A DNA stretch of 64,000 bases from Flavobacterium ustbae (GTDB lineage: Bacteria > Bacteroidota > Bacteroidia > Flavobacteriales > Flavobacteriaceae). The notes below the pieces were generated by a model that was not told the origin of the DNA, did not search any database, and saw only the letters and a program-made list of their open reading frames with translations. Each line of letters starts with the position of its first letter. Positions within the stretch are counted from its first letter, which is position 1. Positions 32,184 through 53,065 of this stretch are shown here, piece after piece. A program made the translations under genes and the position numbers. The DNA lies in contig NZ_RPOC01000001.1 in the NCBI RefSeq assembly GCF_003946915.1, positions 620,001 through 684,000 on the forward strand, read 5' to 3'.

Positions 32184-32204
32184 TAAATGTGTTTTTTACA
32201 TTTA
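32184..32204. promoter_or_regulatory. AraR-box-like inverted repeat upstream of the SSS symporter
   Basis: Arms TAAATGT and ACATTTA are perfect complements with a 7-base spacer (GTTTTTT). The design is the same as the boxes before araB (53,045), susC (38,090) and the NUDIX regulator (37,796). The site lies just upstream of the symporter promoter candidate. Confidence 0.7.
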
Positions 32205-32260
32205 TAAATAACAATTTGTGTTAAATTTTTGATTTTAGACTAAATTCCAACACGAAAGCG

Positions 32261-33319
32261 TTATGCTTTTACCATACTTTTATAATGCACATCTGAAAGC
32301 TGTCTTAAGATTTCGGCACTTTTTTCTGGAGTAATATCTCGCTGCGATTCGCCCATCATTTCGTATCCAACCATAAATTTCTTTACCGTTGCCGATCTTA
32401 ACAATGGCGGGTAGAAGTGCATGTGAAAATGCCATTCTGGATGAAGCAATCCATCGGTTGGCGATTGGTGAATTCCTGAAGAATATGGAAAAGAAGTATT
32501 AAATAAATTGTCATACTTCGTAGTTAATTGCTTTAAGATTTTCGCGAAAGCGGTACTTTCTTCAGCAGTAAAATCGGTAATTTTATTTACGGCTCTTTTG
32601 CTTACAATCATCGTTTCGTAAGGCCAAATTGCCCAGAAAGGAACCAAAGCAACAAAATGATCATTTTCGATTACAATGCGATCGCCCACTTTTAATTCGG
32701 CTTTTACATAATCTTCTAGAAGCGTTCTTTGGTTTTTATCGTAATACGATTTTAAGCTGTTATGTGTTTTTTCCACCTGAGTTGGCAACGAAGATTGCGC
32801 CCAAATCTGACCGTGCGGGTGCGGATTGCTGCAACCCATCACGCTTCCTTTATTTTCAAAAATCTGAACGTGGTTGATGAATTTAATGTTTCCTAAATCG
32901 GTATATTCTTTTTGCCAAGTTTTGATGATGTTCTCAATATCTGCAATTTCCATTTCTGGTAACGTAAGATCGTGTCTTGGCGAAAAGCAAACAACTCGTG
33001 AAATTCCCTGCTCTGGTTTTGCTTTAAAAAAAGTATGTTTGATATCTTCTTCAAAAATAATTTCGTCCTGTTTCATAGCTGCAAAATCATTCTCAAAAAC
33101 AAAACTGTTTTCGTAAGCGGGATTATGAGCTCCGTTGGCACGAACATTTCCTGGGCATAAATAACAAGTTGGATCGTATTGCGGAAGTTCTTCTGTAGAA
33201 ATAACTTCGTTTTGTCCCTGCCAAGGTCGTTTAGAACGATGCGGAGAAACTAAAACCCATTCATTAATTAGGGGGTTGAAACGTCTGTGCGGATCTTCGT
33301 TAATGTCAAAATTTTTCAT
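32261..33319 (-). CDS. galT: Galactose-1-phosphate uridylyltransferase GalT
   Basis: This 352-residue enzyme has the catalytic HPHGQIWA motif (nucleophilic His), the N-terminal RRFNPLINEWVLVSPHRSKRPW, the zinc-binding CYLCPGN and the C-terminal EWHFHMHFYPPLLRS histidines. It exchanges UMP between UDP-glucose and galactose-1-phosphate in the Leloir pathway. The order galM-galK-galT in one direction, with 17 bp between galK and galT, shows an operon. No UDP-galactose 4-epimerase gene (galE) is in the window. Confidence 0.95.
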   Translation of the reverse strand: MKNFDINEDPHRRFNPLINEWVLVSPHRSKRPWQGQNEVISTEELPQYDPTCYLCPGNVRANGAHNPAYENSFVFENDFAAMKQDEIIFEEDIKHTFFKAKPEQGISRVVCFSPRHDLTLPEMEIADIENIIKTWQKEYTDLGNIKFINHVQIFENKGSVMGCSNPHPHGQIWAQSSLPTQVEKTHNSLKSYYDKNQRTLLEDYVKAELKVGDRIVIENDHFVALVPFWAIWPYETMIVSKRAVNKITDFTAEESTAFAKILKQLTTKYDNLFNTSFPYSSGIHQSPTDGLLHPEWHFHMHFYPPLLRSATVKKFMVGYEMMGESQRDITPEKSAEILRQLSDVHYKSMVKA

Positions 33320-33336
33320 TGTAGTGTGTTGTGGTA

Positions 33337-34497
33337 TTAAAGTAATGTTGTTCCGTTTGAGATTTTTACATCGTAGAATTTTAATTCAATTCCAAATGTA
33401 TCTAAATAAAGCTTAGAGAACTTACGTTTTACCTCATTTTCATGCCCTTTTTTAACTAAATTAATAGTGCAACCTCCAAAACCACCGCCCATAAGTCGCG
33501 AACCAACGATGGTTTCATCTTCTTTTGCTGTATCAACAAGCATGTCTAATTCTTCGCAGCTTACCTCATATTCTTGCGATAAACCATAATGTGTTTCAAA
33601 AAGCAATTCGCCCAAAAGTTCGATATTGCCCGCGTCTAAAGCTTTGCAGGCCTTGATAACACGATTGATCTCTTTTACTACAAAATGAACTCTGCTGAAA
33701 ACTTTTCCAGAAAATTTGTCTTTTAGACTCAAAACCTGTTCTTCGGTTGCATCTCTAAAACTTTTTACTTCTGGAAAATGGCTTTTTATGATTGATAAAC
33801 CTTCTTCACATTCAATTCTTCTGGTATTGTATTCAGATGTAAAAAGCGAATGTTTTACATTAGAATCAAACAAAATCAGAGAATAATCTTTGAAGTCGGC
33901 GTTGTGATATTCAAAATCTAAAGTATTGCAATCTAACTGAATAACTTTATTTTCAAGTCCGTGAACGCTAGAAAACTGATCCATAATTCCGCAGTTGATT
34001 CCAACCCAATGTTCTGCTTTCTGACCTAATAATGCGATATCTTTTTTCTCCAATTTTAAATCAAAAAGAGATTTAATTCCGAAAATCATTCCGCATTCTA
34101 AAGCGGCCGAAGAAGACAATCCAGAGCCAACGGGAATATTACTGCTGAAAACGCAGTTGAAACCTTCAAAAGAAAATCCGTTATCTTGAAGCTGTTTGAT
34201 AACCCCGCGAATATAATTCGTCCAAACCACATCGCTTAATTTTACTTCCTGAGTCAGATCGATTTCAAATTCTTCGTTTAAATCAATTGCGATTACTTTA
34301 GAAGTTTTGGAATTTTTTTTACCGAAAGCGAAACATATTATTTTGTCGATTGCAGCAGGTAAAACATAACCATCATTGTAGTCAATATGTTCTCCAATGA
34401 TGTTGATTCTGCCTGGAGAAAGTACCGTTTTTTCTGGAGAAGTTCCGAAAGATTTCTCAAAAAAAGCAGTGGTATTCTGTATTAAAATATCATTCAT
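33337..34497 (-). CDS. galK: Galactokinase GalK
   Basis: This 386-residue GHMP-family kinase has the galactokinase signature PGRINIIGEHIDYNDGYVLP (sugar-binding), the GHMP ATP motif VGSGLSSSAALE and the C-terminal RLMGGGFGGCTINLV. It phosphorylates galactose at C1 with ATP. It is 17 bp upstream of galT and is separated from galM by 223 bp of repeat sequence, so galK may have a second promoter. Confidence 0.95.
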   Translation of the reverse strand: MNDILIQNTTAFFEKSFGTSPEKTVLSPGRINIIGEHIDYNDGYVLPAAIDKIICFAFGKKNSKTSKVIAIDLNEEFEIDLTQEVKLSDVVWTNYIRGVIKQLQDNGFSFEGFNCVFSSNIPVGSGLSSSAALECGMIFGIKSLFDLKLEKKDIALLGQKAEHWVGINCGIMDQFSSVHGLENKVIQLDCNTLDFEYHNADFKDYSLILFDSNVKHSLFTSEYNTRRIECEEGLSIIKSHFPEVKSFRDATEEQVLSLKDKFSGKVFSRVHFVVKEINRVIKACKALDAGNIELLGELLFETHYGLSQEYEVSCEELDMLVDTAKEDETIVGSRLMGGGFGGCTINLVKKGHENEVKRKFSKLYLDTFGIELKFYDVKISNGTTLL

Positions 34498-34720
34498 TAT
34501 ATATAGTTAGTTGTATTGTGGTTTTTGGAATTGTATTAATATTTTTTTGAAATCATTTTTTCAATTAAAATTTAAATCGGCGTAAATCTGCTTTAATCTG
34601 TCTAAATCTGCGTGAAAAAATCTATACGCAAAGTTATTTCACGCTCCCGATAGCTATCGGGATTAAAAGATTTTAGCAGATTCAATTAGATTTTATTTAT
34701 CTCATCGAATGGCTATTATT
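34498..34720. repeat. Intergenic repeats between galM and galK
   Basis: The gap carries GGCGTAAATCTGCTTTAATC and related aatctg units, a cacgctcccg stretch and the short palindrome TCCCGATAGCTATCGGGA at 34645-34662. No gene is seen, and no clear promoter was found. Confidence 0.65.
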
Positions 34721-35773
34721 TTAATTTAAACTTTCAAATTTATAAAGCGTTTTCTGCGTGTATTCTTCTCCTTTTTTCAAAATAGCATTTGGAAAATGAG
34801 CATGATTTGGAGCGTCTGGGAAATTTTGCGTTTCAAAACAAATTCCGCTCTGTGCATTGTAATCTACATTTTCTTTTCCTTTTAGTTTTCCGAAACAATT
34901 TCCGCCTACATATATATGTACACTTGGCTGATCGGTGTACACATTCATTCTCAAGTTATTTTTAAGACTGATTAACTGCGCCACAATTTCTGTTTTAGAA
35001 TTGACTACGAAAGAATTGTCAATAGGAAACGGACAGTTTTTTGGCGTTCTGAAATCAAAATCATGATTCGTTAAATCGGTATAATTTCCCGTTGGAATAT
35101 TGTCTGGATTTGTTTCCAGCATTTTAGCCGATTTGATAAACATTTGCTGTTCCAGAATATTTGCATCGTGTCCGTCAAGATTAAAATAGCTGTGATGCGT
35201 TAAGTTGATAACCGTATCTTCAGTTGAGGTTGCTTTATATTCTAACTTTAATTCGTTTTCTTCGGTTAACGTATAAGTCAAGAAAACGGTCATTTCTCCT
35301 GGAAAGCCTTCGTCTAAATGTTCGCTCAAGAGACTAAAAGTAACAGATGGATTTTCTCCAGAAATTACATTCGCTACATTCCAGATTCTTCTTCCAAATC
35401 CCATATCACCGCCATGAAGCGTATTTCCGTTATTGTTTTCATCAAGCTTAAATTCGATGTCATTTAGGCTAAAAGCACCTTTATGAATACGTCCGGCATA
35501 ACGGCCAACGGTAGTTCCGAAATAAGGAGCACTTGGTAAATTATAAGATTCTAAATACGCTTCTATATTATCGAAACCTAAAACCACATCTACCAGTTTT
35601 CCGTTTAACGGAATTTGGATCGAAGTTACCGTTGCACCATAATTGATGATCTGAACTTTCATTCCGTTTTTGTTAACGAGATCAATTGAATAAATTTCAT
35701 CCTTATTAGGCATTAAACCAAACAATTTACAATTAGGATTCTCTTTTAAATGCGATATGTGTTTTATTTCCAT
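34721..35773 (-). CDS. galM: Aldose 1-epimerase (galactose mutarotase) GalM
   Basis: This 350-residue protein starts at the ATG 35771-35773 (MEIKHISHLKENP). A longer frame to 35,812 would start within the promoter and operator region and is unlikely. Family motifs are NYGATVTSIQIPL, GRYAGRIHKGAF, NTLHGGDMGFGRR with the catalytic His, HSYFNLDG and GICFETQNFPDAPNH with the catalytic Glu. It has no signal peptide, so it is cytoplasmic. It heads the galM-galK-galT unit and is divergent from the GntR gene. Confidence 0.93.
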   Translation of the reverse strand: MEIKHISHLKENPNCKLFGLMPNKDEIYSIDLVNKNGMKVQIINYGATVTSIQIPLNGKLVDVVLGFDNIEAYLESYNLPSAPYFGTTVGRYAGRIHKGAFSLNDIEFKLDENNNGNTLHGGDMGFGRRIWNVANVISGENPSVTFSLLSEHLDEGFPGEMTVFLTYTLTEENELKLEYKATSTEDTVINLTHHSYFNLDGHDANILEQQMFIKSAKMLETNPDNIPTGNYTDLTNHDFDFRTPKNCPFPIDNSFVVNSKTEIVAQLISLKNNLRMNVYTDQPSVHIYVGGNCFGKLKGKENVDYNAQSGICFETQNFPDAPNHAHFPNAILKKGEEYTQKTLYKFESLN

Positions 35774-35797
35774 AAAAAAATTACCAAAAGTGAAATT

Positions 35798-35805
35798 CAA
35801 AAATA
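35798..35805 (-). promoter_or_regulatory. Candidate -7 element for galM
   Basis: Minus-strand TATTTTTG fits TAnnTTTG, 25 bp before the chosen galM start. It supports that start, because the longer frame would begin upstream of this promoter. Confidence 0.5.
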
Positions 35806-35816
35806 GAAACATTTAT

Positions 35817-35824
35817 TATTTTTG
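35817..35824 (+). promoter_or_regulatory. Candidate -7 element for the GntR-family gene
   Basis: TATTTTTG fits TAnnTTTG on the plus strand and lies 51 bp before the gntR-type start. The operator candidate begins 3 bp after it, about at the transcription start. Confidence 0.5.
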
Positions 35825-35826
35825 CA

Positions 35827-35843
35827 TACCAGTACCTACCAGT
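35827..35843. promoter_or_regulatory. Direct-repeat operator candidate in the galM/gntR promoter region
   Basis: TACCAGT, spacer ACC, TACCAGT: a direct repeat with a 10-bp period, one helical turn, in the divergent promoter region. It overlaps the expected gntR start site and the region upstream of the galM -7 element. It is the natural candidate for binding by the adjacent GntR-family protein. Confidence 0.6.
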
Positions 35844-35874
35844 TTTTAATATTAATAGTCAAAATGACTTTATC

Positions 35875-36873
35875 ATGAGCCTTATTTCAATTCAAAATAA
35901 TATTGGTCTGCCAAAATATAAGCAGATTATTCTTTCAATAGAAAAAGCTATTGAAGAGGGGAATTTAGTTAAAGGTGACAGGCTTCCGTCGGTCAATAAA
36001 GTCTGCTTGGCTTTTTCTTTGTCTCGAGATACGGTCTTACTGGCGTATGAGGAATTGAAGAAAAGGGGAATTATTTATGCCATTCCTGGGAAGGGATATT
36101 ATGTTAAAAGCGTTGAAATCACTATAACTCAGAAGGTTTTTTTACTTTTTGACGAATTGAATATTTTCAAAGAAGACATTTATAATTCGTTTTTAAAAAA
36201 CATCGGAAAAAATGTTCAGGTCGATATTTTCTTTCATCATTTTAATGTTCAAGTTTTCAAAAAACTCCTAAATGACAGCAATGGAAATTATACCAAATAC
36301 ATTATCATGCCGACGAACTTAAACGATATCGTCGATTCTATAAAAACCCTACCAGTAGGCGACGTAATTATTTTGGATCAGACCAATTCTGAGTTGAAAA
36401 TGTTTCCGGCGATTTACCAGAATCATCAAAAAGATATTTATGAAGGTTTGATAAAAGGCAAATCCCGTTTGTCAAAATACAAGAAACTGATTTTAATTTT
36501 TTCTGGTTTTAGAGAACCTACAGGAATGAAATTGGGTTTTGAATTATTCTGCCAGACGTATGGTTTTGAATATGAAATTATCTCAGATTTCAGCAACCAA
36601 TCAATTGCTTTGGGAGATTTGTATATTATTCCTAACGATCGCGATTTGCTTTTGGTTATCGAAAATGCGATCAATCGAAATTTAAAACTAGGAGAAGACT
36701 TCGGAATTATATCTTATAATGAAACTGCATTAAAGAAAATCGCTGCAAACGGAATTACGACAATCTCAACCAATTTTGAATTGATGGGAAAAATTCTAGC
36801 CGATATGATTCTAAAAGGAACAAAAGAGCAGATCGAAAACAGATCTGCTCTTATTATGCGGAATTCTTTGTAA
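35875..36873 (+). CDS. GntR-family transcriptional regulator with periplasmic-binding-like sensor domain
   Basis: This 332-residue regulator has an N-terminal winged helix typical of GntR (PKYKQIILSIEKAIEEG, GDRLPSVNKVCLAFSLSRDTV, RGIIYAIPGKGYYV). Its C-terminal domain of about 250 residues resembles LacI-type sugar-binding domains (YIIMPTNLN, DVIILDQ, GFELFCQTYGF, GIISYNETALKKIAANGITTIS). This fusion is common in Bacteroidota sugar regulators. It is divergent from galM-galK-galT and probably controls them in response to galactose; a direct-repeat operator candidate lies between the genes. Confidence 0.88.
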   Translation: MSLISIQNNIGLPKYKQIILSIEKAIEEGNLVKGDRLPSVNKVCLAFSLSRDTVLLAYEELKKRGIIYAIPGKGYYVKSVEITITQKVFLLFDELNIFKEDIYNSFLKNIGKNVQVDIFFHHFNVQVFKKLLNDSNGNYTKYIIMPTNLNDIVDSIKTLPVGDVIILDQTNSELKMFPAIYQNHQKDIYEGLIKGKSRLSKYKKLILIFSGFREPTGMKLGFELFCQTYGFEYEIISDFSNQSIALGDLYIIPNDRDLLLVIENAINRNLKLGEDFGIISYNETALKKIAANGITTISTNFELMGKILADMILKGTKEQIENRSALIMRNSL

Positions 36874-36897
36874 AAATTTTTTTGCGAATAAATTTTT

Positions 36898-37029: not shown

Positions 37030-37049
37030 AAATAAATATGCGTTACAGC

Positions 37050-37739: not shown

Positions 37740-37795
37740 ATATAATTAATTTGGATGGGTAAATATATGAACTTCCTAAAAGCTTTCATAATTTA

Positions 37796-37816
37796 TTAAT
37801 GTAGATTTCACACTTA
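37796..37816. promoter_or_regulatory. AraR-box-like inverted repeat upstream of the NUDIX regulator
   Basis: Arms TTAATGT and ACACTTA with spacer AGATTTC. The symmetry is imperfect (5 of 7 pairs), but arm length, spacer length and the TGT...ACA core match the three other boxes. It lies 57 bp before the regulator start, suggesting autoregulation. Confidence 0.55.
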
Positions 37817-38089: not shown

Positions 38090-38110
38090 AAAGTGTATTT
38101 TTTACACAAT
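38090..38110. promoter_or_regulatory. AraR-box-like inverted repeat upstream of susC
   Basis: Arms AAAGTGT and ACACAAT with spacer ATTTTTT, in the 574-bp region between the NUDIX regulator and susC. The GTGTA/TACAC core is a perfect inverted repeat. The rest of this gap is very AT-rich with several T-runs and no gene; near-consensus TTAATTTG at 38174-38181 may be part of the susC promoter. Confidence 0.6.
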
Positions 38111-38313
38111 TAAAACTTAAAAAAGGGCTGTTTTTTTGAAAAAACTATGAGTTTTTAAATGTTAATTGAACACTTAATTTGCGATATGTGTTTTTTTTCT
38201 GCTCTTTTTTTGTGATATTAATTTGTTTACGTGGTTTTTTTTTAGTTAAATTTACAAATGTAAGATTAACACTTATTAACTTAAAACCACTAACCAATCT
38301 TAACTAAACCATT

Positions 38314-41300
38314 ATGATTACAAAACAAAAATTACTTTTGTATTGCAATTTTCTATTGCCAAAAAAGAACTGGATTTTAGCAGTATTGATGCTGTTATTT
38401 TCTGCCAATCAATTGTCTGCTCAAGGCAAAACGATAACAGGAGTTGTAACATCGGCACAAGACAATCTTCCTTTGCCGGGTGTAAACATTATTATAAAAG
38501 GAACCAAAACAGTTACTACAACTGGATTTGATGGAGAGTATTCGATTAAAGCCTCACCAAATGATGTTTTAGTTTTTTCATTTATAGGATTTCAGAACAA
38601 AGAGATAGTTGTAGGAAGCCAGTCTAAAATTGATGCGGCTTTAGGCGAAGATACCAATAAGCTTAATGAGGTAGTTGTTATTGGTTACGGAACTCAAAAG
38701 AAATCGGACTTAACGGGTTCTGTAAGTGTCGTTAATTTAGAATCGGCTAAAAAAGTAGTGACTTACGATGCGGCCAAAATGCTTCAAGGGCAAGTACCAG
38801 GTGTTACGGTTCAATCTTCGGGAGAACCAGGAGGTTTTGTCAATGTAAAAATTAGAGGGATAACTTCATTTAGTAACAACAATCCATTGTTTGTAATTGA
38901 CGGAATTATGGTTGATTCTCCATACGATTTTGCTCCAGGAGAAATAGAATCGATGCAGGTTTTAAAAGATGCTTCTTCGGCTGCTATTTATGGTGTTCGC
39001 GGTGCAAATGGTGTTGTAATTATTACAACTAAAAAAGGCAGACAAGGCAAAATGGATATTAAATTCAAGTCGATTGTAGGTCTTCAAAACGTGGCTAAAA
39101 AGTGGGATGTTACAGATCGTTTAGGATATCAGAAAATCACAAGCGAGGCGGAAAGAAACAGAGATATTAGAGCAGGAGTTCCTGTAAGTATTGCTCCAGG
39201 AAACGACCCAAATAGTCCATCTTATATATCAAATGTAAATACAGACTGGCAAAAAGAAGCTTTTCAGACGGGGGTTGTGCAAAATCAAGCTCTTACATTT
39301 ACTGGTGGTGCAGAAAGTATCGCGTATAGCTTTAATGTAGATTATTTTAAAAATACAAGCTACATCAAAACGCCTCAGGACTATGAGAGATTATCGACCA
39401 ATTTAAATTTAAACGGTAAAAAAGGAAGATTTAAATACGGTGCGAAAATAGCGTATACGCAATCTGACAAAGAAATTTTTAACGAATACAATGCAGGACA
39501 AACTGTTGTAAGTGACATCTTAGGAGCGGTTCCGACTATGCCAGTTTACGATGCCAACAGACTTGGAGGTTACGGAGGTACAGACAACTTGACGCAAAGA
39601 GCTATTTCTATGAACCCAATTGGGTACAACAATTTAATTGACAACAACGGAAAAAGAAATCGTTTCATTGGAGACGTTTGGGGAGAAGTTGAAATAGTAA
39701 AAGGTCTTAAATATAAACTGGATGTAAGTTATGACAGAACAGACTGGGAAAACAGAAAATTTATTCCGCCAAGTGATTTAGGATGGTATTATATTACTAC
39801 AAATGATGAAGCTTCTCTGGATGTTGAAACTGGAAATGAGTTAAGAACATTCTTAAATAACATTTTAACTTATGAAGTTACATTAGGCAAACATAAAATT
39901 GATGCTCTTGCGGGTTGGATCCAAGAAAAAAGAGATTATCACAGATATAATATGAGAGGTGTAGGTTTTACTCCAAACGACATTCCGATGCTTCAGTATG
40001 CTGATGCTAGAAATGCATCTGAGTATAAATTTACAATTACAGGAGTATCTTATATCAGCAGATTGAATTATTCTTATGATGACAGATATTTAGTGCAGGG
40101 TAACTTTAGACAAGATAAAACATCTCTTTTTAGCGAAAAAAATAACTCAGCAAACTTTTACTCTTTTTCAGGAGGATGGAAACTTAGCAACGAAAAATTT
40201 TGGACATTGCCTGAATGGATAAGCAATATTAAACTTAGAGGAGGTTATGGTACATTAGGAAACAATACTATTTCGCAATATTTCTTTGCTTCGACAGTAA
40301 ACAGTTTTGCAGGATATGATTTTAATAATGAGCTTGCACCTGGAACAACGGTAGTAGCTGCTCTTGACCCAAATGTAAAATGGGAAAAATCGATCAACTC
40401 CAATGTTGGAATCGAGTTAGGATTCTTCAATAATGATTTACAGTTTACGGCTGAATATTTCATCAAAAAATCAGATGATTTATTATTGGGAGTTCCTCTG
40501 CCGTTTTCTACAGGAGCATTTCCAGCAAGTGTAACAACAAATGCAGGATCGATGAAAAACTCAGGAGTAGAATTTACAGCGTCTTACAGCAATCACCATC
40601 ATAAATTTAAATATGATATTTCGGCCAACTTTGGAACACTTAAAAATGAAGTGACTAAAATCGGTGTAAACGGAAATCCTATTTATGGAGCAGTTTCTAA
40701 AACAGAAGTAGGAAGATCGGTAGGAGAAATGTTTGCTTGGGAAGCGATTGGAATTTTCCAGAATGCGGCTGAAGTTGCGTCTTCTCCAACACAAACTGGC
40801 GCGGCTCCTGGAGACATAAAATTTAGAGATGTAAATGGAGACGGAGCTATAACTGATGCTGATAGAACTTTTCAAGGCGTAACCATTCCTAAATATGGTT
40901 TCGGATTTAATTTTAGTGCTTCTTATTCCAACTTTGATTTCTCCATGTTTTGGCAAGGAGCTGGTGGAAATAAAGTATTTAATGCCATGTACCGCAACTT
41001 AATGATTGGTCAATACACCAACCATCATACAGACGAATTAAATTATTGGACACCAACTAACACCAATACCAATATTCCAGCTCCAGTTATTGGAGATCCA
41101 AATGGAAATGCTAGAGATTCAAACAGATTTATTGAAAGCGGTGATTATTTGAAATTACAGACAATGGAAATCGGTTACAACATTCCGATTAAAGATAAAT
41201 TTATTGAAAAAGCTAAGGTTTACCTAAATGGTCAAAACCTGTTAATTATCTCTAAATACAAAGGATACGATCCTGACTTTAACAGTGACGGATTGCTTTC

Positions 41301-41370: not shown

Positions 41371-41399
41371 ACCAGGTCTAACCATTAAAACGTATTAAA

Positions 41400-43021: not shown

Positions 43022-43079
43022 ATGCCTTAGAATTGGAATACAAGAGAAGTAATTTTTAACAGTAACTAAATTATATACA

Positions 43080-44084: not shown

Positions 44085-44098
44085 AAAAATTAAATTCA

Positions 44099-44122
44099 GA
44101 GGAAAGTTTTCGGGCTTTCCTC
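44099..44122 (+). promoter_or_regulatory. Intercistronic 8-bp stem-loop
   Basis: GAGGAAAG (44099-44106) and CTTTCCTC (44115-44122) enclose loop TTTTCGGG, followed by AAAAACAAAAACC, between the first GH43 gene and GH51. There is no T-run; probably a processing or stability hairpin. Confidence 0.55.
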
Positions 44123-44138
44123 AAAAACAAAAACCACT

Positions 44139-45677
44139 ATGAAAAAAGCACTTTTAATCTCATTTCTTATTACGTTTTGTAGTCAGTTGAATTTCGCGCA
44201 GACGACAATAACCATTAAAAACACAGCCGATGCTCCAACAATTGACAAAAATATTTATGGTCATTTTGCCGAACATTTAGGTCGTTGCATCTACGGAGGA
44301 TTTTTTGTGGGAGACACTTCGAAAATTCCAAATACAAACGGAGTAAGAAATGATATTGTAAAGGCTTTAAAAGAATTAAAAATTCCAAATTTAAGATGGC
44401 CTGGAGGCTGTTTTGCTGATACCTACCACTGGAAAGACGGAATTGGACCTCAAAACGAAAGACCAACAATTGTAAACAAATGGTGGGGAGGTACAACAGA
44501 AGACAACAGTTTTGGAACACATGATTTCCTTAATATGTGTGAGCTATTGGGAGCAGAACCTTATTTATCTGGAAATGTGGGTAGCGGAACGGTTCAGGAA
44601 TTAGCAGACTGGGTTCAGTACACCAATTTTGGAGGCAAAAGTCCGATGAGTGATTTGCGTGTAAAGAACGGTAGAAAAGAACCATGGAAAGTAAAATACT
44701 GGGGAATTGGAAACGAAGCTTGGGGATGCGGAGGAAATATGACCGCAGAATACTACGCTGGCGAATACCGTAAATACGCGACTTTCATGTCAGACTGGGA
44801 AAACACTGGCGGAATTACAAGAATTGCTTCTGGCTCAAACAGCTCTGATTACAACTGGACAGAAGTTTTAATGAAAGGCATTCCGTTAAATATGTTAGGC
44901 GGAGTTGGAGTTCACCATTATGCTGTAATTGACTGGGGCAAAAAAGGAAGCGATAGAGAATTTACAGAAGAAGGTTATTTCAAAACCATGCAGTCTGCTT
45001 TAAAAATGGAAGAATTGGTAACGAAACATTCGGCTATTATGGACAAATACGATCCGGAGAAAAAAGTAGCCATGATTGTAGACGAATGGGGAGGTTGGTA
45101 TGAAGTAGAAAAAGGAACAAATCCGGGATTCTTATACCAGCAAAATACTATGCGTGATGCTGTTTTAGCGGGCGCAACATTAAACATTTTCAACAATCAT
45201 GCAGAACGTGTTCGTATGGCAAACTTAGCACAATGTGTAAATGTTTTGCAAGCCGTAATTCTTACCGATAAAGCTAAAATGATTACAACACCAACCTATT
45301 CGGTAATGAAAATGTACGCGGTGCATCAAGATGCGAAACTATTGCCAGTAAGCTTTCAATCGCCTTTATATACGTATAATGGAGAAACACTTCCAGCAGT
45401 TTCAGCATCAGCATCAAAAGATAAAAATGGAGCAGTTCATATTTCTTTAGTGAATGTAGATGCCAAAAACAAAAACAAAATCGAAATTGATGTCAAAGAT
45501 TTAGGAGCTAAAAACTTTATAGGAACGATAATTACATCAGGAAAATTACAAGATTACAATTCATTCGAAAATCCAAACAAAATTGTTCCAACAGCTTTTA
45601 AAGGTTTCGAAAACAAAAAAGGAAAACTTGAAATCACAATTCCTCCTTTCTCAGTAGTTGTTTTAGAAGGAAAATAA
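44139..45677 (+). CDS. GH51 alpha-L-arabinofuranosidase, secreted
   Basis: This 512-residue enzyme has a signal peptide (ending LNFAQ) and GH51 hallmarks: NIYGHFAEHLGRCIYGG, RWPGGCFADTYHW, the acid/base Glu193 in WGIGNEAWGCGGN and the nucleophile Glu316 in IVDEWGGWYEVE. GVHHYAVIDWG is also typical. It removes terminal alpha-L-arabinofuranose from oligosaccharides with retention. The signal peptide places it in the periplasm, where it would act on oligosaccharides imported by SusC. The next GH43 gene starts 10 bp downstream. Confidence 0.95.
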   Translation: MKKALLISFLITFCSQLNFAQTTITIKNTADAPTIDKNIYGHFAEHLGRCIYGGFFVGDTSKIPNTNGVRNDIVKALKELKIPNLRWPGGCFADTYHWKDGIGPQNERPTIVNKWWGGTTEDNSFGTHDFLNMCELLGAEPYLSGNVGSGTVQELADWVQYTNFGGKSPMSDLRVKNGRKEPWKVKYWGIGNEAWGCGGNMTAEYYAGEYRKYATFMSDWENTGGITRIASGSNSSDYNWTEVLMKGIPLNMLGGVGVHHYAVIDWGKKGSDREFTEEGYFKTMQSALKMEELVTKHSAIMDKYDPEKKVAMIVDEWGGWYEVEKGTNPGFLYQQNTMRDAVLAGATLNIFNNHAERVRMANLAQCVNVLQAVILTDKAKMITTPTYSVMKMYAVHQDAKLLPVSFQSPLYTYNGETLPAVSASASKDKNGAVHISLVNVDAKNKNKIEIDVKDLGAKNFIGTIITSGKLQDYNSFENPNKIVPTAFKGFENKKGKLEITIPPFSVVVLEGK

Positions 45678-45687
45678 ATTTATAAAG

Positions 45688-47310
45688 ATGAAAAAATCCA
45701 ATTTCATTCTCCAAACAGTTTCGTACATCGGACTCTTTTTTGCGGTACTTATTGCGGTAAGCTGTTCCAAGGATGACCCTGCACCTGAAGTAGGAGGGCC
45801 AGATCCAGTAGAACCGCCTGTTGTGGTGCCGCCAGTATTTCCAGGCCCGACTTACGCCGATAATTATACGGCATTTGCAAGTTGGGCAAGCAGATCGCAA
45901 TGGAATTTAGCCAACGTGCACGATCCTTCAGTTGAAAAATCGGGAGAATATTATTATATGTATCAAACCGATGCTTCATACGGAAACACGCACGACGGCA
46001 ACGGACATTTTTTCTACAGAAGATCAAAAGATTTAATCAATTGGGAATTTATGGGATCTTCAATGACCACAGCTCCGGCTTGGGTAAAAGATTCATTAAA
46101 TAATAAAAGAGCCAGAATGAATCCGGCGCTTCCTCCAATCGAAAATCCAAATTATGGCTATTGGGCGCCGTGTGTTCGAAAAGTGGGAAATAAATTTAGA
46201 ATGTACTACAGTATTGTAGTTACAAATCCAATTGTCGGAACAGACACCAACACGTCTTGGTCGGAGCGTGCTTTTATTGGTTTAGCCGAAACAGATGATT
46301 TGGCTTCTAATAATTGGGTCGACAAAGGAATGGTAGTTTGTTCTGAACCTGACGGTGTAAAAAGCTACGTTAGAAACGGAGGAAACGATTGGGATGCGTA
46401 TTTTAAATTCAACGCCATCGATCCGAGTTTTATTGAAACGCCCGAAGGCGAACAATACTTAATTTACGGTTCTTGGCATTCTGGAATTGCGGCTTTAAAA
46501 CTTAATCCGGCAACTGGAAAACCAGACAAATTAAAAACAATTGACGATTACGGAATTCGAATTGCAGGTCGCGGAAATGTAAACACAAATCGTTGGCAGG
46601 CGCTTGAAGGTCCAGAAATTATCTACAATCCAGACACACAATATTACTATTTGTTTTTGGCTTATGACGAATTATCGGTAGCATATAATACACGTGTAGC
46701 GCGTTCCAAAAACATTCTTGGACCTTACGTAACCAATACGGGAATGAGTATTACCAACGGAGCAGAATGTTTTCCGTTAGTAACACATCCATACCAATTT
46801 AAAAATCATACCGGTTGGGTTGGATTTGCGCATTGTGCAGTTTTTCAAAACCCAACAACCAAGCAATGGTATTATGCTTCTCAAGCGCGTTTGCCAGAAG
46901 GTGTTTCTGGAATCGCAGTTTCAAATGCGGTTATGATGGGACATGTCCGCGGCATTCAATGGACAGAAGACGGCTGGCCTGTAATTGAACCAGAACGTTA
47001 TGCGGGAGTGCCGACAACGACTTTTGCAGAAGGGAACTTGGTAGGAACTTGGGAACAAATCACAATGAATTACCAATACAAAACCATGCAGAAAGCGGTT
47101 ACTATTTTTCTAACAGCTGACAAAAAAGTTAGCGGAGACATAACAGGAACTTGGTCGTATGATGCAACCAAAAAAATCGCCACCATAAACGGAGTAAAAT
47201 GCAACGTAGTCGACGCTTGGGATTGGGAATCGGCAACCAGAAAAGTAACCTTAACCTACACAGGAATCAACAGCGCAGGATTAGCCGTTTGGGGCAAAAA
47301 AGTGAATTAA
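45688..47310 (+). CDS. GH43 endo-arabinanase lipoprotein with GH43_C-type C-terminal domain
   Basis: This 540-residue protein has lipobox AVSC (Cys27) and a Pro/Val-rich linker (PDPVEPPVVVPPVFPGP). The GH43 catalytic domain shows NVHDPSVEKSGEYYYM (base Asp), NAIDPSFIETPEG (second Asp) and ALEGPEIIYNPD (acid Glu). A C-terminal beta domain of about 95 residues (GTWEQITMNYQYKTMQKAV through GLAVWGKK) resembles the lipocalin-like C-terminal domain of extracellular endo-alpha-1,5-arabinanases. It is likely surface-exposed and cleaves long arabinan. Confidence 0.92.
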   Translation: MKKSNFILQTVSYIGLFFAVLIAVSCSKDDPAPEVGGPDPVEPPVVVPPVFPGPTYADNYTAFASWASRSQWNLANVHDPSVEKSGEYYYMYQTDASYGNTHDGNGHFFYRRSKDLINWEFMGSSMTTAPAWVKDSLNNKRARMNPALPPIENPNYGYWAPCVRKVGNKFRMYYSIVVTNPIVGTDTNTSWSERAFIGLAETDDLASNNWVDKGMVVCSEPDGVKSYVRNGGNDWDAYFKFNAIDPSFIETPEGEQYLIYGSWHSGIAALKLNPATGKPDKLKTIDDYGIRIAGRGNVNTNRWQALEGPEIIYNPDTQYYYLFLAYDELSVAYNTRVARSKNILGPYVTNTGMSITNGAECFPLVTHPYQFKNHTGWVGFAHCAVFQNPTTKQWYYASQARLPEGVSGIAVSNAVMMGHVRGIQWTEDGWPVIEPERYAGVPTTTFAEGNLVGTWEQITMNYQYKTMQKAVTIFLTADKKVSGDITGTWSYDATKKIATINGVKCNVVDAWDWESATRKVTLTYTGINSAGLAVWGKKVN

Positions 47311-47498
47311 AAATATAGCCACAGATTTCACAGATTAAAAGGATTTTAAAATCTGCTAAATCTTAATAATCTGCGAGAGAAAAATAGCCACGAATTCACG
47401 AATTAAAATGATTAAAAATTTGTGTAATAAAAATAACCGCAAATTTCACGAATTGTAATTTGGTAAAATTCGGGAATTCGTGGCGAAAAAAAAAAATA
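47311..47498. repeat. Intergenic repeats inside the arabinan locus
   Basis: A ccacagatttcacagatt unit (about 47,320) is followed by a 98-bp imperfect palindrome at 47387-47484, GCCACGAATTCACGAATTAA against GGGAATTCGTGGC with inner complementary arms. Close copies are at 25,247 and 29,080. The palindrome ends 14 bp before the next gene's start. Confidence 0.8.
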
Positions 47499-48446
47499 AT
47501 GATAATGAAAAACCTATTTACAAGCTTTTCCATTTTGTTTTTATCGATAGCCACTGCGCAATCGATAAAAACAAACAATCCCATTATCACCGATAAATAT
47601 AAAGGAGATCCAGCCGCATTGGTTTACAAAGACAAAGTATACTTGTATGCAGGTCATGATGAAGCGCCAAACGATTTTAATTTTTATAAAATGAATGAAT
47701 GGCTGGTCTATTCTTCTTCAGATATGAAAAAATGGGAATCGCACCCGGTGCCACTAAAAGTAACCGATTTTAAATGGGCAAAAAGTGACGCTTGGGCTTC
47801 GCAGGTAATCGAAAGAAATGGAAAATTCTATTGGTACGTTACGGTTGAACACGGTACAATTCCAGGAAAATCAATTGGAGTTGCGGTTGCAGACAATCCG
47901 CTTGGACCTTTTAAAGATGCATTAGGAAAAGCATTAATCACCAACGATATGACCAAATTCAGCGATATAAGTTGGGACGATATTGATCCGACAGTTTTTA
48001 TCGATGATGACGGACAAGCTTATTTATTTTGGGGAAATACAGCCTGTCATTATGCTAAATTAAAAGAAAATATGACGGAAATCGACGGAGAAATTCATCA
48101 CGTCAAACTCCCAAATTTCACCGAAGCGCCGTGGATTCACAAACACAAAGACAGGTATTATTTGTCGTATGCGTATGAATTTCCAGAGAAAATTGCCTAC
48201 GCCATGAGCAAATCAATAACTGGTCCGTGGGAGTTTAAAGGAATTCTAAATGAATTAGCAGGAAACAGCAACACGAACCATCAATCGATAATTGATTTTA
48301 AAGGACAATGGTATTTCATTTATCACAATGGAGCGTCAAAGCCACATGGAGGTAGTTTTAGAAGATCAGTTTGTGTCGATAAATTATTTTACAACAAAGA
48401 CGGAACGATGAAACGTGTGGTGATGACATCTGAGGGAATACAGTAA
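47499..48446 (+). CDS. GH43-family glycosidase, secreted
   Basis: This protein of about 315 residues starts at the ATG 47499 or 47505 (MKNLFTSFSILFLSIATAQS is the signal peptide). An earlier in-frame ATG lies inside the palindromic repeat and was rejected. GH43 positions are KYKGDPAALVYKDKVYLYAGHDEA (base Asp), DDIDPTVFIDDDGQAYLFWG (second Asp) and FTEAPWIHKHKDRYYLSYA (acid Glu). It resembles the alpha-L-arabinofuranosidase/beta-xylosidase branch rather than the endo-arabinanases. It probably acts in the periplasm on side chains; linkage specificity is not visible. Confidence 0.88.
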   Translation: MIMKNLFTSFSILFLSIATAQSIKTNNPIITDKYKGDPAALVYKDKVYLYAGHDEAPNDFNFYKMNEWLVYSSSDMKKWESHPVPLKVTDFKWAKSDAWASQVIERNGKFYWYVTVEHGTIPGKSIGVAVADNPLGPFKDALGKALITNDMTKFSDISWDDIDPTVFIDDDGQAYLFWGNTACHYAKLKENMTEIDGEIHHVKLPNFTEAPWIHKHKDRYYLSYAYEFPEKIAYAMSKSITGPWEFKGILNELAGNSNTNHQSIIDFKGQWYFIYHNGASKPHGGSFRRSVCVDKLFYNKDGTMKRVVMTSEGIQ

Positions 48447-48555
48447 AAAGTGTTCAGTGTTCAGTTTTTGAGTGTTCAGAATTAGCAAATGCAGCTTATA
48501 TGATCTAATAAAGTTTCCAGATAAAGCCAAACTTAAATTTACTTACATCACTTAT

Positions 48556-49536
48556 ATGGTTTACAAAAACATAAAACAGGCAATCACATTTCTAATGATG
48601 TTGACAGCGTCGGTATCGTTTGCGCAGGATATTGTCGTTCACGATCCCGTTGTCATCAAACAAAAAGACACGTATTATCTGTTTTGCACCGGTAATGGAA
48701 TCAGTGTTTTCAGTTCAAAAGACTTAAAAAAGTGGAACAAAGAGGCACCCGTTTTCAAAGACAAACCAGTTTGGGCGGATGGTGTTGCAGCCGATTTCAA
48801 AAACCATATTTGGGCGCCAGATATTTCGTTTCATAACAATCAATATTATCTGTATTATTCGGTTTCCGCTTTCGCGAAAAATACGTCGGCAATTGGCGTT
48901 GCAATCAATAAAACATTAGATCCAAAAGATAAAAACTACAAATGGATCGATCAGGGAATTGTCATTCAGTCACATCCAAATCGCGATATGTGGAATGCCA
49001 TTGATCCGAATTTAGTTTTTGACGAAAACAATACGCCTTGGCTTTCTTTCGGTTCTTTTTGGGAAGGATTAAAATTAGTAAAACTAAATCCGGATTTAAA
49101 ATCAATTGCAGAACCGCAAGAATGGCATACGATTTCAAAACGAAAAAGAAGTTTCGAATTAGCTGATTCAGACCCAGGCGATGGCGCGCTCGAAGCTCCA
49201 TTTATCTTTAAGAAAAACGGTTATTACTATCAATTCCTTTCTTGGGATTTATGCTGTCGCGGAGAAAAAAGCACCTATAAAGTCGTTGTTGGAAGATCAA
49301 AAAACGTAACCGGACCTTATTTGGATAAAGAAGGAAAACAGCTCGATCAAGGCGGAGGAAGTTTAGTCGTTCAAGGCGACGAAAATTACTTCGGCGTAGG
49401 CCACAACAGCGCATATACTTTTGACGGAAAAGATTATATGTTTTACCACGCTTACGAAAAGAAATCCAACGGAACACCAAAATTAGTAGTCAAAGAAATG
49501 CAATGGGACGCCGATTTATGGCCAGTTTTGAAATAA
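48556..49536 (+). CDS. GH43 arabinan endo-1,5-alpha-L-arabinosidase, secreted
   Basis: This 326-residue protein starts at the ATG 48556 (MVYKNIKQAITFLMMLTASVS, signal peptide ending FAQD). The longer frame from 48,472 lacks a signal-like start and was not used. GH43 residues are IVVHDPVVIKQKD (base Asp), NAIDPNLVFDENN (second Asp) and GALEAPFIFKKNG (acid Glu). HIWAPDISFHNNQ and CCRGEKSTYK match endo-arabinanases, as in the first GH43 of the locus. No lipobox, so periplasmic. Confidence 0.9.
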   Translation: MVYKNIKQAITFLMMLTASVSFAQDIVVHDPVVIKQKDTYYLFCTGNGISVFSSKDLKKWNKEAPVFKDKPVWADGVAADFKNHIWAPDISFHNNQYYLYYSVSAFAKNTSAIGVAINKTLDPKDKNYKWIDQGIVIQSHPNRDMWNAIDPNLVFDENNTPWLSFGSFWEGLKLVKLNPDLKSIAEPQEWHTISKRKRSFELADSDPGDGALEAPFIFKKNGYYYQFLSWDLCCRGEKSTYKVVVGRSKNVTGPYLDKEGKQLDQGGGSLVVQGDENYFGVGHNSAYTFDGKDYMFYHAYEKKSNGTPKLVVKEMQWDADLWPVLK

Positions 49537-49738
49537 ATAAAATTAAGGCCACAGATTTAGGGATTAAAAAGATTAAAATAAATCAGCTCAATCTGCTCCC
49601 GATAGCTATCGGGACTGCGGGAGAAAATATAAACGCATACTATGTTTTTTACATAAAATGAAATGCCTTTAAAGAAAAGAAAAGCTATGATTCTATGTGT
49701 TTAAAAAATAATTACATCGAATAACTCATTATAAAACA
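49537..49738. repeat. Intergenic repeats before the GH127/146 gene
   Basis: The gap has a CCACAGATTTAGGGATTAA unit, the short palindrome TCCCGATAGCTATCGGGA at 49597-49614, and a partial acacatag-family copy at 49639-49703 (CTATGTTTTTTACATAAAA, then AAAGCTATGATTCTATGTG). No gene is seen. Confidence 0.7.
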
Positions 49739-51721
49739 ATGAAAAAATACAACTTACCAATTTTAACGATTTTCATCTCGCTTCTGGTTTTAGTTTCCTG
49801 TAAAGAAACCAAAAATGATGTAGTACAATCGACTAAAACTTCGGCCTTAAAAGCAGGTTACGAAATAGAACCGGTTAACATTCAGAATGTAAAATTGACA
49901 GATTCTTTTTGGTTGCCCATTATTAAAAGAGTGCAGGAAGTTACAATCGAATATGCGATTCAGAAATGTAATGAAGAAGGCCGTTTTGAGAACTTTTTAA
50001 TTGCTGGAAAACAAAAATCAGGAACCGTTCGCGGAGAAATGCCTTTTGATGATACCGATATTTATAAAATTATCGAAGGCGCATCGAATACTTTAATCTC
50101 AGCACCAAATCCGAAATTGGAGAGAGTTTTAGATTCGCTAGTTGCGATCGTAAAAATTGGTCAGGAAAAAGACGGTTATTTAACAACATGGAGAACTATA
50201 AATCCAGCAAAACCGCCTGCAACTTGGGTTCCTGTTATTGAAGGAAAACGTTGGGAATCTTTACAAATTAGCCACGAATGCTACAATGCAGGACATTTAA
50301 TCGAAGCGGCTATTGTACATTATGAAGCAACAGGAAAAAGAAATTTTTTGGACATCGCCATCAAAAATGCCGATTTATTAGTCAAAACGTTTGGCGAAAA
50401 ACCAGATCAGATTAGAGGCGTTCCAGGGCATCAAATTGTAGAAACAGGTTTATTGAAATTGTATCAGATTACGGGTAAAGAAGATTATCTGAAACTGGCA
50501 AAATATTATTTGGACAATCGAGGCAATCCAAACGATCATAAATTATATGGAGAATATGCACAAGATCATATTCCTGTAATTCAGCAAAATGAAGTGGTCG
50601 GCCACGCCGTAAGAGCGGTTTATATGTACGCAGGAATGACTGATATTGTGGCTTTAGCCAAAGATAAAAGCTATGAAAATGCTGTAAATAATTTATGGAA
50701 AAACATGGTCAATAAAAAAATGTACATCACTGGCGGAATCGGTTCAAGACATGACGGTGAAGCTTTTGGAGTAAATTACGAATTGCCAAACCTAACGGCT
50801 TACAATGAAACCTGCGCTGCAATCGGCGATGTATATTGGAATCACAGACTGCACAGTTTATACGGAAAATCGAAATATTTTGATGTCATCGAAAGAACCA
50901 TGTACAACGGATTAATTTCGGGAATTTCGCTTGACGGAAAACAATTTTTCTATCCAAATGCTTTAGAATCTGATGGCGTTTATAAATCTAACAGAGGTTC
51001 TTGCACGCGTCAGGCTTGGTTTGACTGTTCTTGCTGTCCGACGAATCTGATTCGTTTTATTCCGTCGATTCCGGGATTGATTTATTCGAAAACTAAGAAT
51101 GATTTATATGTGAATTTATATGCTTCAAACGATGCTTCTTTCACTTTAGGAAAAACCGATTTACAGATTTCGCAACAGACTTCTTATCCTTGGAATGGGA
51201 AAGTTGGCATTTCAGTTAATCCAAAAAAAGAAGCCAAATTCACCATTAAACTTAGAGTTCCAAGTTGGGCAAGAAATGAAGTTTTGCCAGGCGATTTGTA
51301 TACCTATAAAAAAGCTTCAACTCAAAAACCAACGATTTCTGTAAACGGAGAAGTTTTAGCAATCCAACCTGAAAATGGATATTTCAACGTAACCAAAAAT
51401 TGGAAAAAAGGAGACAAAATCGCGCTTAATTTCCCAATGGAAGTTCAAGAAGTTGAAACGAATTTGAAAGTAGCAACGAACAAAAATAAAGTGTCTTTAG
51501 AATACGGACCAATTGTGTATGCGGTTGAAGAAGTAGATAATAAAAGCAATTTCGATAAAATCGATATCAGCGCAAAAGATACTTTCCAAGTAAAAAAAGA
51601 AGCCAATTTATTGAATGGAGTTAATGTAATTGAAACCAATAAATTAAAAGCAATTCCGTATTACAGCTGGTCAAACCGAGGCGTAAATAAAATGAAAGTC
51701 TGGATTGATTTTAAAGACTGA
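49739..51721 (+). CDS. GH127/GH146 beta-L-arabinofuranosidase, lipoprotein
   Basis: This 660-residue lipoprotein (lipobox LVSC, Cys21) belongs to the former DUF1680 family. An (alpha/alpha)6 barrel carries ISHECYNAGHLIEAAIVHYE and GHAVRAVYMYAGMTDI. The Cys cluster DCSCCPTNLIRF matches the CxCC arrangement of family enzymes, in which one Cys is the nucleophile and the others bind zinc. MYITGGIGSRHDGEAFGVNYELPN supplies the Glu ligand. These enzymes release beta-L-arabinofuranose, so the locus may also handle beta-linked arabinose of complex pectin or plant glycoproteins. Confidence 0.9.
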   Translation: MKKYNLPILTIFISLLVLVSCKETKNDVVQSTKTSALKAGYEIEPVNIQNVKLTDSFWLPIIKRVQEVTIEYAIQKCNEEGRFENFLIAGKQKSGTVRGEMPFDDTDIYKIIEGASNTLISAPNPKLERVLDSLVAIVKIGQEKDGYLTTWRTINPAKPPATWVPVIEGKRWESLQISHECYNAGHLIEAAIVHYEATGKRNFLDIAIKNADLLVKTFGEKPDQIRGVPGHQIVETGLLKLYQITGKEDYLKLAKYYLDNRGNPNDHKLYGEYAQDHIPVIQQNEVVGHAVRAVYMYAGMTDIVALAKDKSYENAVNNLWKNMVNKKMYITGGIGSRHDGEAFGVNYELPNLTAYNETCAAIGDVYWNHRLHSLYGKSKYFDVIERTMYNGLISGISLDGKQFFYPNALESDGVYKSNRGSCTRQAWFDCSCCPTNLIRFIPSIPGLIYSKTKNDLYVNLYASNDASFTLGKTDLQISQQTSYPWNGKVGISVNPKKEAKFTIKLRVPSWARNEVLPGDLYTYKKASTQKPTISVNGEVLAIQPENGYFNVTKNWKKGDKIALNFPMEVQEVETNLKVATNKNKVSLEYGPIVYAVEEVDNKSNFDKIDISAKDTFQVKKEANLLNGVNVIETNKLKAIPYYSWSNRGVNKMKVWIDFKD

Positions 51722-51760
51722 TTCCTCACAAATAAATTTAATTCAACAAACCGATATAAC

Positions 51761-52876
51761 ATGCAAATAAACCTATTAAAAAATCTGGCACTTTTAGCCG
51801 TTGTTTTTGTAAGTGTCTCTTCCTGTACAGATAAAAAAGCAGAAAAAAAGCTTTCTAAAGAAGAAGTGACAACGACAAAAACAACCTTAACCAACAAACC
51901 TATTGTGTTGCAAAGAGCAGATCCTTTTATCTACAAGCATACAGATGGGTATTACTATTTTACAGGGTCGGTACCAACCTACGACGCTATAGAGTTAAGG
52001 CGCGCAAAGTCTATTGATGAACTTCAAAATGCGGAAACCTTTAGGGTATGGGAAAAACATAAAAGCGGACCAATGAGCCGTCATGTTTGGGCTCCTGAAA
52101 TTCATTATTTAGATGGAAAATGGTACGTGTATTTTGCAGCAAGCCAAGAAGACGATATTTGGAGATTAAGACCTTATGTTTTGCAGTGTACAGGTCAGGA
52201 TCCTTTGCACGACAAGTGGATTGAACTTGGGCAAATGCAGGCAGCCGACGCAGATCCAAAAAGCTTTACCGATTTTTCTCTAGACGGGACTGTATTTGAG
52301 CACAAAAATAAACGCTATTTCTGTTGGGCAGAAAAAACAGGCGGACAGTTTGCAGCTTCTAATTTGTATTTAGCCGAAATGGAATCACCCATAAAACTAA
52401 AGACGGTTCAATTCATGCTTACGACTCCAGATTATGATTGGGAGCGTGTAGGTTTTTGGGTAAATGAAGGTCCTGCGGTTATTAAACACAAAGGGAAAAT
52501 TTACATTACTTTTTCGGCAAGTGCTACTGGTTCTTGTTACAGTATGGGAATGATGGAAGCAGACGAAAATGCTGATTTATTAGATAGAAATTCTTGGAAA
52601 AAATCCAGATATCCAGTATTAAAAACCAACGAAGCAAAACATATTTATGGGCCAGGGCATAACTCTTTTACAGTAGATGAAAACGGAGAACCATTAGTAA
52701 TTTATCATGCAAGAGATTACGAAAAAGCTGTTGGCGATCCAAAAGTGGTACCTGCAACAGATAGAAGACCGCTGAAAGAAATTATTGCAGATCCGTTATA
52801 CGATCCTAATCGTCATGCGAGAATGATGAAATTAAAATTTGATAAAAACGGTAGGCCAATATTTGAATTTAATTAA
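51761..52876 (+). CDS. GH43 exo-alpha-L-arabinofuranosidase-like lipoprotein
   Basis: This 371-residue lipoprotein has lipobox VSSC (Cys22) and a short Lys-rich linker. GH43 residues: LQRADPFIYKHTDGYYYFTG (base Asp), FSLDGTVFEHKNKRYFCWA (second Asp) and WVNEGPAVIKHKGKIYITFS (acid Glu). The C-terminal part HNSFTVDENGEPLVIYHARDY is typical of exo-arabinofuranosidases of GH43 subfamily 26-like enzymes. It probably releases single arabinose units from the ends of arabino-oligosaccharides. It closes the enzyme block; the araB promoter region follows. Confidence 0.88.
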   Translation: MQINLLKNLALLAVVFVSVSSCTDKKAEKKLSKEEVTTTKTTLTNKPIVLQRADPFIYKHTDGYYYFTGSVPTYDAIELRRAKSIDELQNAETFRVWEKHKSGPMSRHVWAPEIHYLDGKWYVYFAASQEDDIWRLRPYVLQCTGQDPLHDKWIELGQMQAADADPKSFTDFSLDGTVFEHKNKRYFCWAEKTGGQFAASNLYLAEMESPIKLKTVQFMLTTPDYDWERVGFWVNEGPAVIKHKGKIYITFSASATGSCYSMGMMEADENADLLDRNSWKKSRYPVLKTNEAKHIYGPGHNSFTVDENGEPLVIYHARDYEKAVGDPKVVPATDRRPLKEIIADPLYDPNRHARMMKLKFDKNGRPIFEFN

Positions 52877-53044
52877 AATTCCAAATAAAATCAATACGAT
52901 TTCCAGCTTGTTTTCTCACTGTTTTGAAGATTAAGATGAAATAATCGCAAAAGAATAAATGTAATGTTGACATTTATCTTTGGTTTTAAGCTTAAAGCCT
53001 TGTTTTGATGCATTTTTTATAAAAATTAAATACCAAAACCATAT

Positions 53045-53065
53045 TAAGTGTTTTTTGTACACTTA
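53045..53065. promoter_or_regulatory. AraR-box-like inverted repeat upstream of araB
   Basis: Perfect arms TAAGTGT and ACACTTA with spacer TTTTTGT. It is the most symmetrical copy together with the one at 32,184. It covers the -33 TTG of the araB promoter candidate, so a bound repressor would exclude RNA polymerase. Confidence 0.75.

Follow-up and report, generated by a model that had tools for sequence, protein, structure and literature searches.

We suggest that in Flavobacterium ustbae an AraR regulon extends beyond the arabinose genes to an SSS-family sugar symporter gene at the end of the galactose (gal) cluster, that this gene has a boxed promoter of its own, and that the symporter imports both D-galactose and L-arabinose; we put the probability of this reading at about 70%. 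The region analysed, hereafter the window, is a stretch of 64,000 nt (NZ_RPOC01000001.1, positions 620,001-684,000, forward strand) from a genome of 4.9 Mb, and its open reading frames (ORFs) were named through NCBIfam and Pfam profile searches (Table 1). In the proposed mechanism AraR, a repressor of the NrtR family that senses L-arabinose, would act on 21-bp boxes, one ahead of araR, three ahead of susC, two ahead of araBDA and one ahead of the symporter gene, and an arabinose-controlled promoter would have been inserted between galT and the symporter gene, so that the last gene of the gal cluster could be made without the rest when arabinose is present. As an earlier note on this DNA had claimed, the arabinose locus appears to lack an inner-membrane permease: the scan, which covered ORFs from 120 aa upwards between 37050 and 61913 except one of 131 aa antisense in susC, revealed none. 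The symporter is a testable candidate for this absent importer and, as a putatively AraR-controlled, vSGLT-like protein that follows araA through the genus, a concrete candidate for L-arabinose entry in Bacteroidota.

Boxes and their putative regulator

Scored by mismatches against the consensus TAARTGT-N7-ACAYTTA, the window contains at least seven boxes, four of them perfect (32184, 38156, 52956 and 53045). The earlier note had listed four boxes of one design, at 32184, 37796, 38090 and 53045. All four are present, but the list missed those at 38156, 38255 and 52956, and the shared design holds well for three boxes (no mismatch at 32184 and 53045, one at 37796), whereas the box at 38090, with four mismatches, has only the core GTGT-N7-ACAC. 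We nevertheless credit this weakest box because a core of the form [AG]TGT-N7-ACA[CT] lies 61-64 bp ahead of the main susC box in 21 of 26 susC promoters with a tandem pair.

The boxes are genuine and far more frequent than expected by chance. Against the four perfect boxes in the window, 199 of 200 first-order Markov resamples had none and the remaining one had a single box. A genome search for the box, which the earlier note had proposed as a check, was carried out as a pattern scan and gave five perfect boxes, four of them in the window, compared to zero for the reversed pattern. Looser matching is uninformative because its counts are near or at background: with up to three mismatches the window has 32 matches (shuffle mean 23.2; 32 reached in 5 of 100 shuffles), and with up to two mismatches the genome has 198 matches compared to 237 for the control. 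Matches at this looser level were therefore rejected as box evidence, and of the one-mismatch places outside the window a subset was fetched and inspected.

By sequence, the NUDIX protein encoded next to susC is a close relative of Bacteroides AraR. It is identical to BtAraR of Bacteroides thetaiotaomicron in 106 of 218 residues and matches PF00293, PF21906 and PF19368 above cut-off, i.e. a NUDIX domain with an NrtR/AraR winged helix. The residues that hydrogen-bond L-arabinose (R34, R86 and H131) and four of the ligand pocket (Y5, F36, F49 and F129; V92 is T) are kept; of the DNA-contacting residues K179, R180 and N181 are kept, K184 is replaced by S, and 204/205 read R/K instead of K/R. The Nudix signature, read by eye, is degenerate, with RILNTY for the REUXEE part, as expected of AraR proteins, which lack two or three of its glutamates. 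As described in two papers, structures of BtAraR have been solved with DNA and with L-arabinose (PMC4666351), tests have shown BtAraR to be a repressor that L-arabinose releases (PMC4666351; PMC5061871), araM is derepressed upon deletion of araR in B. thetaiotaomicron (PMC5061871), and the BtAraR operator (Table 2 of PMC4666351) is TGT-N7-ACA, the geometry of the boxes in the window. By analogy with BtAraR, the flavobacterial protein would bind its boxes, repress and be released by L-arabinose.

The host genome (G000 in our sample; G, L and C numbers denote genomes, fetched loci and contigs, respectively) has six NrtR-type winged-helix matches, two of them in tandem adjoining susCD-sized genes (C11:302423-303774 and others). 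Such paralogs were rejected as owners of the boxes: in the four other paralog stretches fetched no box with zero or one mismatch lies beside the paralog, and one match with a single mismatch, in L235, is about 9 kb from an NrtR paralog.

Across 61 Flavobacterium genomes, host included, perfect boxes track the presence of AraR in counts made without correction for kinship. In the 17 genomes with a close AraR, i.e. a regulator of at least 78% identity, we counted 66 perfect boxes (reversed control 8) with at least one box in 17 of 17 genomes, and in the 44 genomes without a close AraR 7 perfect boxes (control 19), found in 7 of 44 genomes. These counts support the suggestion that the boxes belong to AraR.

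The symporter promoter

The claim that the symporter gene beside the gal genes has a perfect box was confirmed, with no mismatches at 32184. To define the surrounding promoter, upstream regions of the symporter class at 84% identity or more were pooled and duplicates dropped by their last 250 bases, leaving 64 distinct promoters. In 51 of these there is a box with zero or one mismatch, and in all 51 the motif TAnnTTTG follows 46-51 nt after the start of the box (49 nt in 40 promoters, 48 in 5, 51 in 5 and 46 in 1). The distance between box and ATG, by contrast, ranges from 100 to 243 bp. Two further promoters (L041 and L056) have a two-mismatch box in the same register. TAnnTTTG at -12 to -5 is described as the flavobacterial -7 element (PMC9723704). 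On this fixed geometry, the symporter box belongs to a dedicated putative promoter of its own.

The remaining 11 of the 64 promoters comprise four gal-cluster copies in the AraR-bearing genomes G005, G051, G074 and G075, each of which has a second, solo copy with a perfect box; two copies in genomes without AraR (G004 and G017); three copies beside an AraR paralog; and two exceptions. Among unboxed copies in gal clusters or AraR-less genomes, no TAnnTTTG was found within 450 bp in L148, L154, L156, L256, L257, L048 or L063, and in L155 one occurs at a distance of 349 bp. The idea that the -7 element of the symporter is covered by another AraR site, 36 bp further on, was considered and is not credited beyond close relatives because just 19 of the 51 boxed promoters, all from close relatives, have one with up to two mismatches.

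At araB, the box at 53045 was said to cover the TTG of the -33 element, and indeed this TTG (53055-53057) lies within it, 23 nt ahead of TAnnTTTG at 53081-53088; in most boxed araB promoters the -7 element is offset by 34-37 nt. Tandem boxes are spaced by 99 bp in 26 of 35 susC promoters and by 89 bp in 17 of 40 araB promoters. DNA looping between boxes at these conserved distances was considered and set aside.

In total, kinship to BtAraR with kept contact residues, matching operator geometry, boxes that track AraR and a promoter of fixed spacing support the proposal of the earlier note that the AraR regulon includes the symporter, and AraR control of the symporter appears well supported by these sequence comparisons.

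Proposed substrates of the symporter

The closest solved structures are those of vSGLT, the sodium/galactose symporter of Vibrio parahaemolyticus (2xq2, 3dh4; E 5e-118), and the protein matches the SSF family PF00474 with 191 bits (cut-off 22.8) as well as TIGR00813 above its cut-off. Of the galactose-binding residues of vSGLT (PMC4270436), N64, Q69, E88, N260, Y263, K294 and Q428 are kept and S91 is A; the galactose-site residues are kept in 55 of 55 class members in an alignment of 79 sequences. At the sodium site A62, I65, S66, V363 and S365 are kept and S364 is A in the alignment as read by eye; coupling to Na+ is putative. The symporter and vSGLT thus share family, fold by homology and the galactose-site residues and differ in S91 to A, Q425 to T, S364 to A and in the presumed control by AraR. 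vSGLT position 425 is T in the symporter class and in three distant araBDA-linked symporters and Q or E in most gal-linked classes; as a mark of substrate it was rejected, since it has changed independently only a few times and gal-only copies have T as well.

L-arabinose is similar to galactose without C6 and has the galactose configuration at C1-C4. The kept galactose-site residues favour galactose as a substrate, and regulation and distribution favour arabinose, which makes the import of both D-galactose and L-arabinose the most likely role of the symporter. Symporters of at least 85% identity occur in 19 of 61 genomes, namely in 16 of 16 araA-bearing genomes and in 3 of 45 others (G003, an incomplete genome with a close AraR, G004 and G017), and all 19 are among the 37 genomes with galK. 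The gal clusters of genomes without a close AraR mostly have other symporter classes (43-59% identity), and in 14 such loci, one of them with just 112 bp upstream, no box with fewer than three mismatches was found.

The earlier note took the symporter to be, in all likelihood, the importer of arabinose and held that it is not galactose-specific. The link to arabinose is retained here on grounds of regulation and distribution, and a shared importer fits better than one for arabinose alone. That the protein has become an arabinose importer without useful galactose service is in line with the way in which its presence follows araA and AraR and with G064 and G065, in which the 87-88% class is close to araR with no gal genes around and a 46-59% class adjoins galT; we regard it as unlikely, given that in G017, which lacks araA and a close AraR, an 88% class member adjoins galK-galT, that the galactose-site residues are kept, and that all 19 genomes with the class have galK, most of them showing no further class of symporter next to their gal genes. 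A shared importer is preferred over such a switch of substrate because of the gal location in G017, the kept vSGLT sites and, in genomes with two copies of the gene, protein copies that are 96.6-98.9% identical.

Conversely, the symporter might import galactose only, with arabinose co-inducing its uptake because arabinogalactan and pectin release both sugars, and with L-arabinose taking a different route, for instance a XylE/GlcP-type sugar porter of the MFS encoded beside an arabinosidase-like gene (C14:38238-39746). The gal-cluster location, the vSGLT-like sugar site and the neighbourhood of the C14 porter fit this idea, as does AraP of B. thetaiotaomicron, which is under AraR and is described as importing arabinobiose and not arabinose (PMC5061871), so that an AraR site is no proof of a monosaccharide substrate. 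We consider it improbable: the C14 locus has no box at up to two mismatches, the box serves the symporter gene only, leaving out galK and galT, this gene is present in all 16 araA-bearing genomes sampled, and G051, G005, G074 and G075 keep a separate copy under AraR alone, away from the gal genes.

Several observations weigh against a shared importer under general AraR control. The regulator departs from BtAraR at K184 (S) and K204/R205 (R/K), positions that are called absolutely conserved (PMC4666351). With TAnnTTTG placed at -12 to -5, the symporter box would lie at about -61 to -41, upstream of the promoter and not over it, which is an unusual spot for a simple repressor and unlike the araB box over -33. 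The two exceptions among the promoters come from AraR-bearing species, F. psychroterrae (L048) and F. tructae (L063), each with a single symporter copy of this class that has neither box (five mismatches) nor -7 element; they count against the generality of the boxed symporter. In L069 (12614-15011), L073 (6643-9052) and L245 the symporter copy adjoins the gene of an AraR paralog (51-52%), and a conserved site of another type, similar to TAATTGT-N7-ACAAATA, is followed by a -7 element, and the paralog perhaps has a shifted operator. Sodium-site S364 is A in the symporter, the C14 porter is another possible importer, kinship was left uncorrected in the counts, and the AraR-less genomes with this symporter class are two only (G004 and G017) and make a small control.

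The araBDA genes of other genera have another SSS symporter gene, with 30-36% identity, as a neighbour (L082, L093, L098, L099, L101-L103, L105 and L107-L109).

Genomes with two symporter copies

In the four AraR-bearing genomes with two copies (G005, G051, G074 and G075) only the copy away from the gal genes is boxed. The high protein identity given above contrasts with 23-45% identity over the 60 bp ahead of the start, and all five solo promoters, those of the four genomes and that of L255, have an offset of 51 nt from box to -7 element. Third-position identity is 87.7% within G051 and 82.4% within G005 compared to 72-74% between these two species; for G074 and G075 the picture is mixed, with 78.8% and 85.9% within and, between the two genomes, 76.1% for the solo copies and 85.2% for the gal copies. 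These values suggest that the two copies share an origin and later underwent gene conversion. A 3'-terminal block of gene conversion was dropped, the last alignment window being only 3 nt long.

From these data we tentatively propose, at somewhat less than even odds, that a galactose symporter gene was captured by AraR through an added promoter-operator to give one importer for both sugars, that in one branch the gene was duplicated, each copy keeping one of the two promoters while gene conversion held the coding sequences nearly alike, and that the captured gene would supply the missing L-arabinose importer of these Bacteroidota. A repressor would here have taken over only the transporter of another sugar's cluster, by means of a promoter and operator between two genes, and the duplicated branch, if the scenario is true, represents a regulatory division of labour without a division in the protein.

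Relation to known systems

AraR regulons are already known, and the flavobacterial form with a boxed gal-cluster symporter is new. PMC4666351 reports AraR orthologs in Bacteroides and Prevotella and nowhere contains "Flavobacteri", and we found no report of a flavobacterial AraR regulon in the open-licence PMC literature. The regulon of B. thetaiotaomicron AraR (BT0354) has the same regulator family, ligand residues and 21-bp TGT-N7-ACA box and likewise takes in genes for arabinose catabolism, susCD and arabinan hydrolase genes; it differs in an araP permease gene inside araMPRDAB and in tandem boxes 3 or 42 bp apart (PMC4666351); here, araBDA has no permease gene, the boxed gene is that of a vSGLT-like symporter in the gal cluster, and the boxes are 89 bp (araB) and 99 bp (susC) apart. 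AraP (BT0355), compared by description only, is likewise a permease under AraR; it is needed for arabinobiose and arabinan and largely dispensable on L-arabinose, and the L-arabinose monosaccharide importer of B. thetaiotaomicron was called unknown in 2016 (PMC5061871).

Further loci and features of the window

The fifth perfect box of the genome (C56:140051-140071; L005:9052-9072) lies 102 bp ahead of a susC gene adjoining pectinesterase and GH127 genes, in a locus of the pectin type with rhamnosidase genes further on. In stretches of relatives fetched for a perfect box, 5 of 7 have a box of this type between the same two genes, which speaks to position and not to frequency because the stretches were chosen by their boxes.

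The housekeeping transaldolase gene was rejected as a general target: its box has one mismatch in the host genome and, among 13 AraR-bearing relatives, one in G049, two in G051 and at least four in the remaining 11, as it does in all five AraR-less relatives compared. A second transaldolase gene, beside araR, has a perfect box in G052 and G053, and in G010 a transketolase gene beside araR is behind a perfect box. Such loci (L144, L145 and L149) suggest that pentose-phosphate genes are within the AraR regulon in some relatives.

Table 1. Features of the window, with coordinates counted from its first nucleotide.
Feature	Position	Strand	Basis or remark
SSS-family sugar symporter (vSGLT-like), 561 aa; proposed shared D-galactose/L-arabinose importer	30325-32010	-	Pfam SSF E 4e-56; vSGLT E 5e-118
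-7 element TACATTTG (TAnnTTTG), symporter promoter	32148-32155	-	145-138 nt ahead of ATG; fixed offset from box
Putative AraR box, 0 mismatches, symporter promoter	32184-32204	.	pattern scan; about -61 to -41 if -7 element = -12 to -5
galT	32261-33319	-	NF008724, 530.5 bits (cut-off 448)
galK	33337-34497	-	TIGR00131, 328 bits (cut-off 226.65)
Aldose 1-epimerase (galM-like)	34721-35812	-	NF008277, 270 bits (cut-off 240)
Probable gal regulator, GntR-type DNA-binding domain	35875-36873	+	GntR-family matches, residues 3-95
AraR, NUDIX domain and NrtR-type winged helix	37050-37739	-	106/218 identity to BtAraR; PF21906, PF19368 above cut-off
Putative AraR box, 1 mismatch, before araR	37796-37816	.	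pattern scan; kept in relatives
Weaker putative AraR box, 4 mismatches, before susC	38090-38110	.	core GTGT-N7-ACAC intact
Putative AraR box, 0 mismatches, before susC	38156-38176	.	pattern scan; absent from earlier note
Putative AraR box, 1 mismatch, before susC	38255-38275	.	99 bp from 38156 box; absent from earlier note
susC	38314-41370	+	TIGR04056, 821 bits
susD	41400-42959	+	SusD match, under NCBIfam cut-off
Seven glycoside hydrolase genes	43080-52876	+	NCBIfam/Pfam
GH43 genes (five)	starts 43080, 45688, 47460, 48472, 51761	+	NCBIfam/Pfam
GH51-type arabinofuranosidase gene	start 44139	+	NCBIfam/Pfam
GH127 gene	start 49739	+	NCBIfam/Pfam
Putative AraR box, 0 mismatches, araB upstream box	52956-52976	.	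89 bp ahead of 53045 box; absent from earlier note
Putative AraR box, 0 mismatches, araB promoter	53045-53065	.	over -33 TTG
-7 element TATATTTG of araB	53081-53088	+	36 nt from box start
araB	53117-54808	+	profile match
araD	54792-55493	+	profile match
araA	55657-57165	+	profile match
Aldose 1-epimerase (araM/galM-like)	57258-58445	+	profile match

The product of the probable gal regulator gene has a weak C-terminal similarity of the LacI type (residues 251-327, E 9e-4), and we take its make-up, a GntR-type domain with a weakly LacI-type C-terminus, to be reminiscent of Bacillus AraR. Two identical 21-bp perfect palindromes, CCACTTACAATTTGTAAGTGG, are located at 62821-62841 and 63215-63235.

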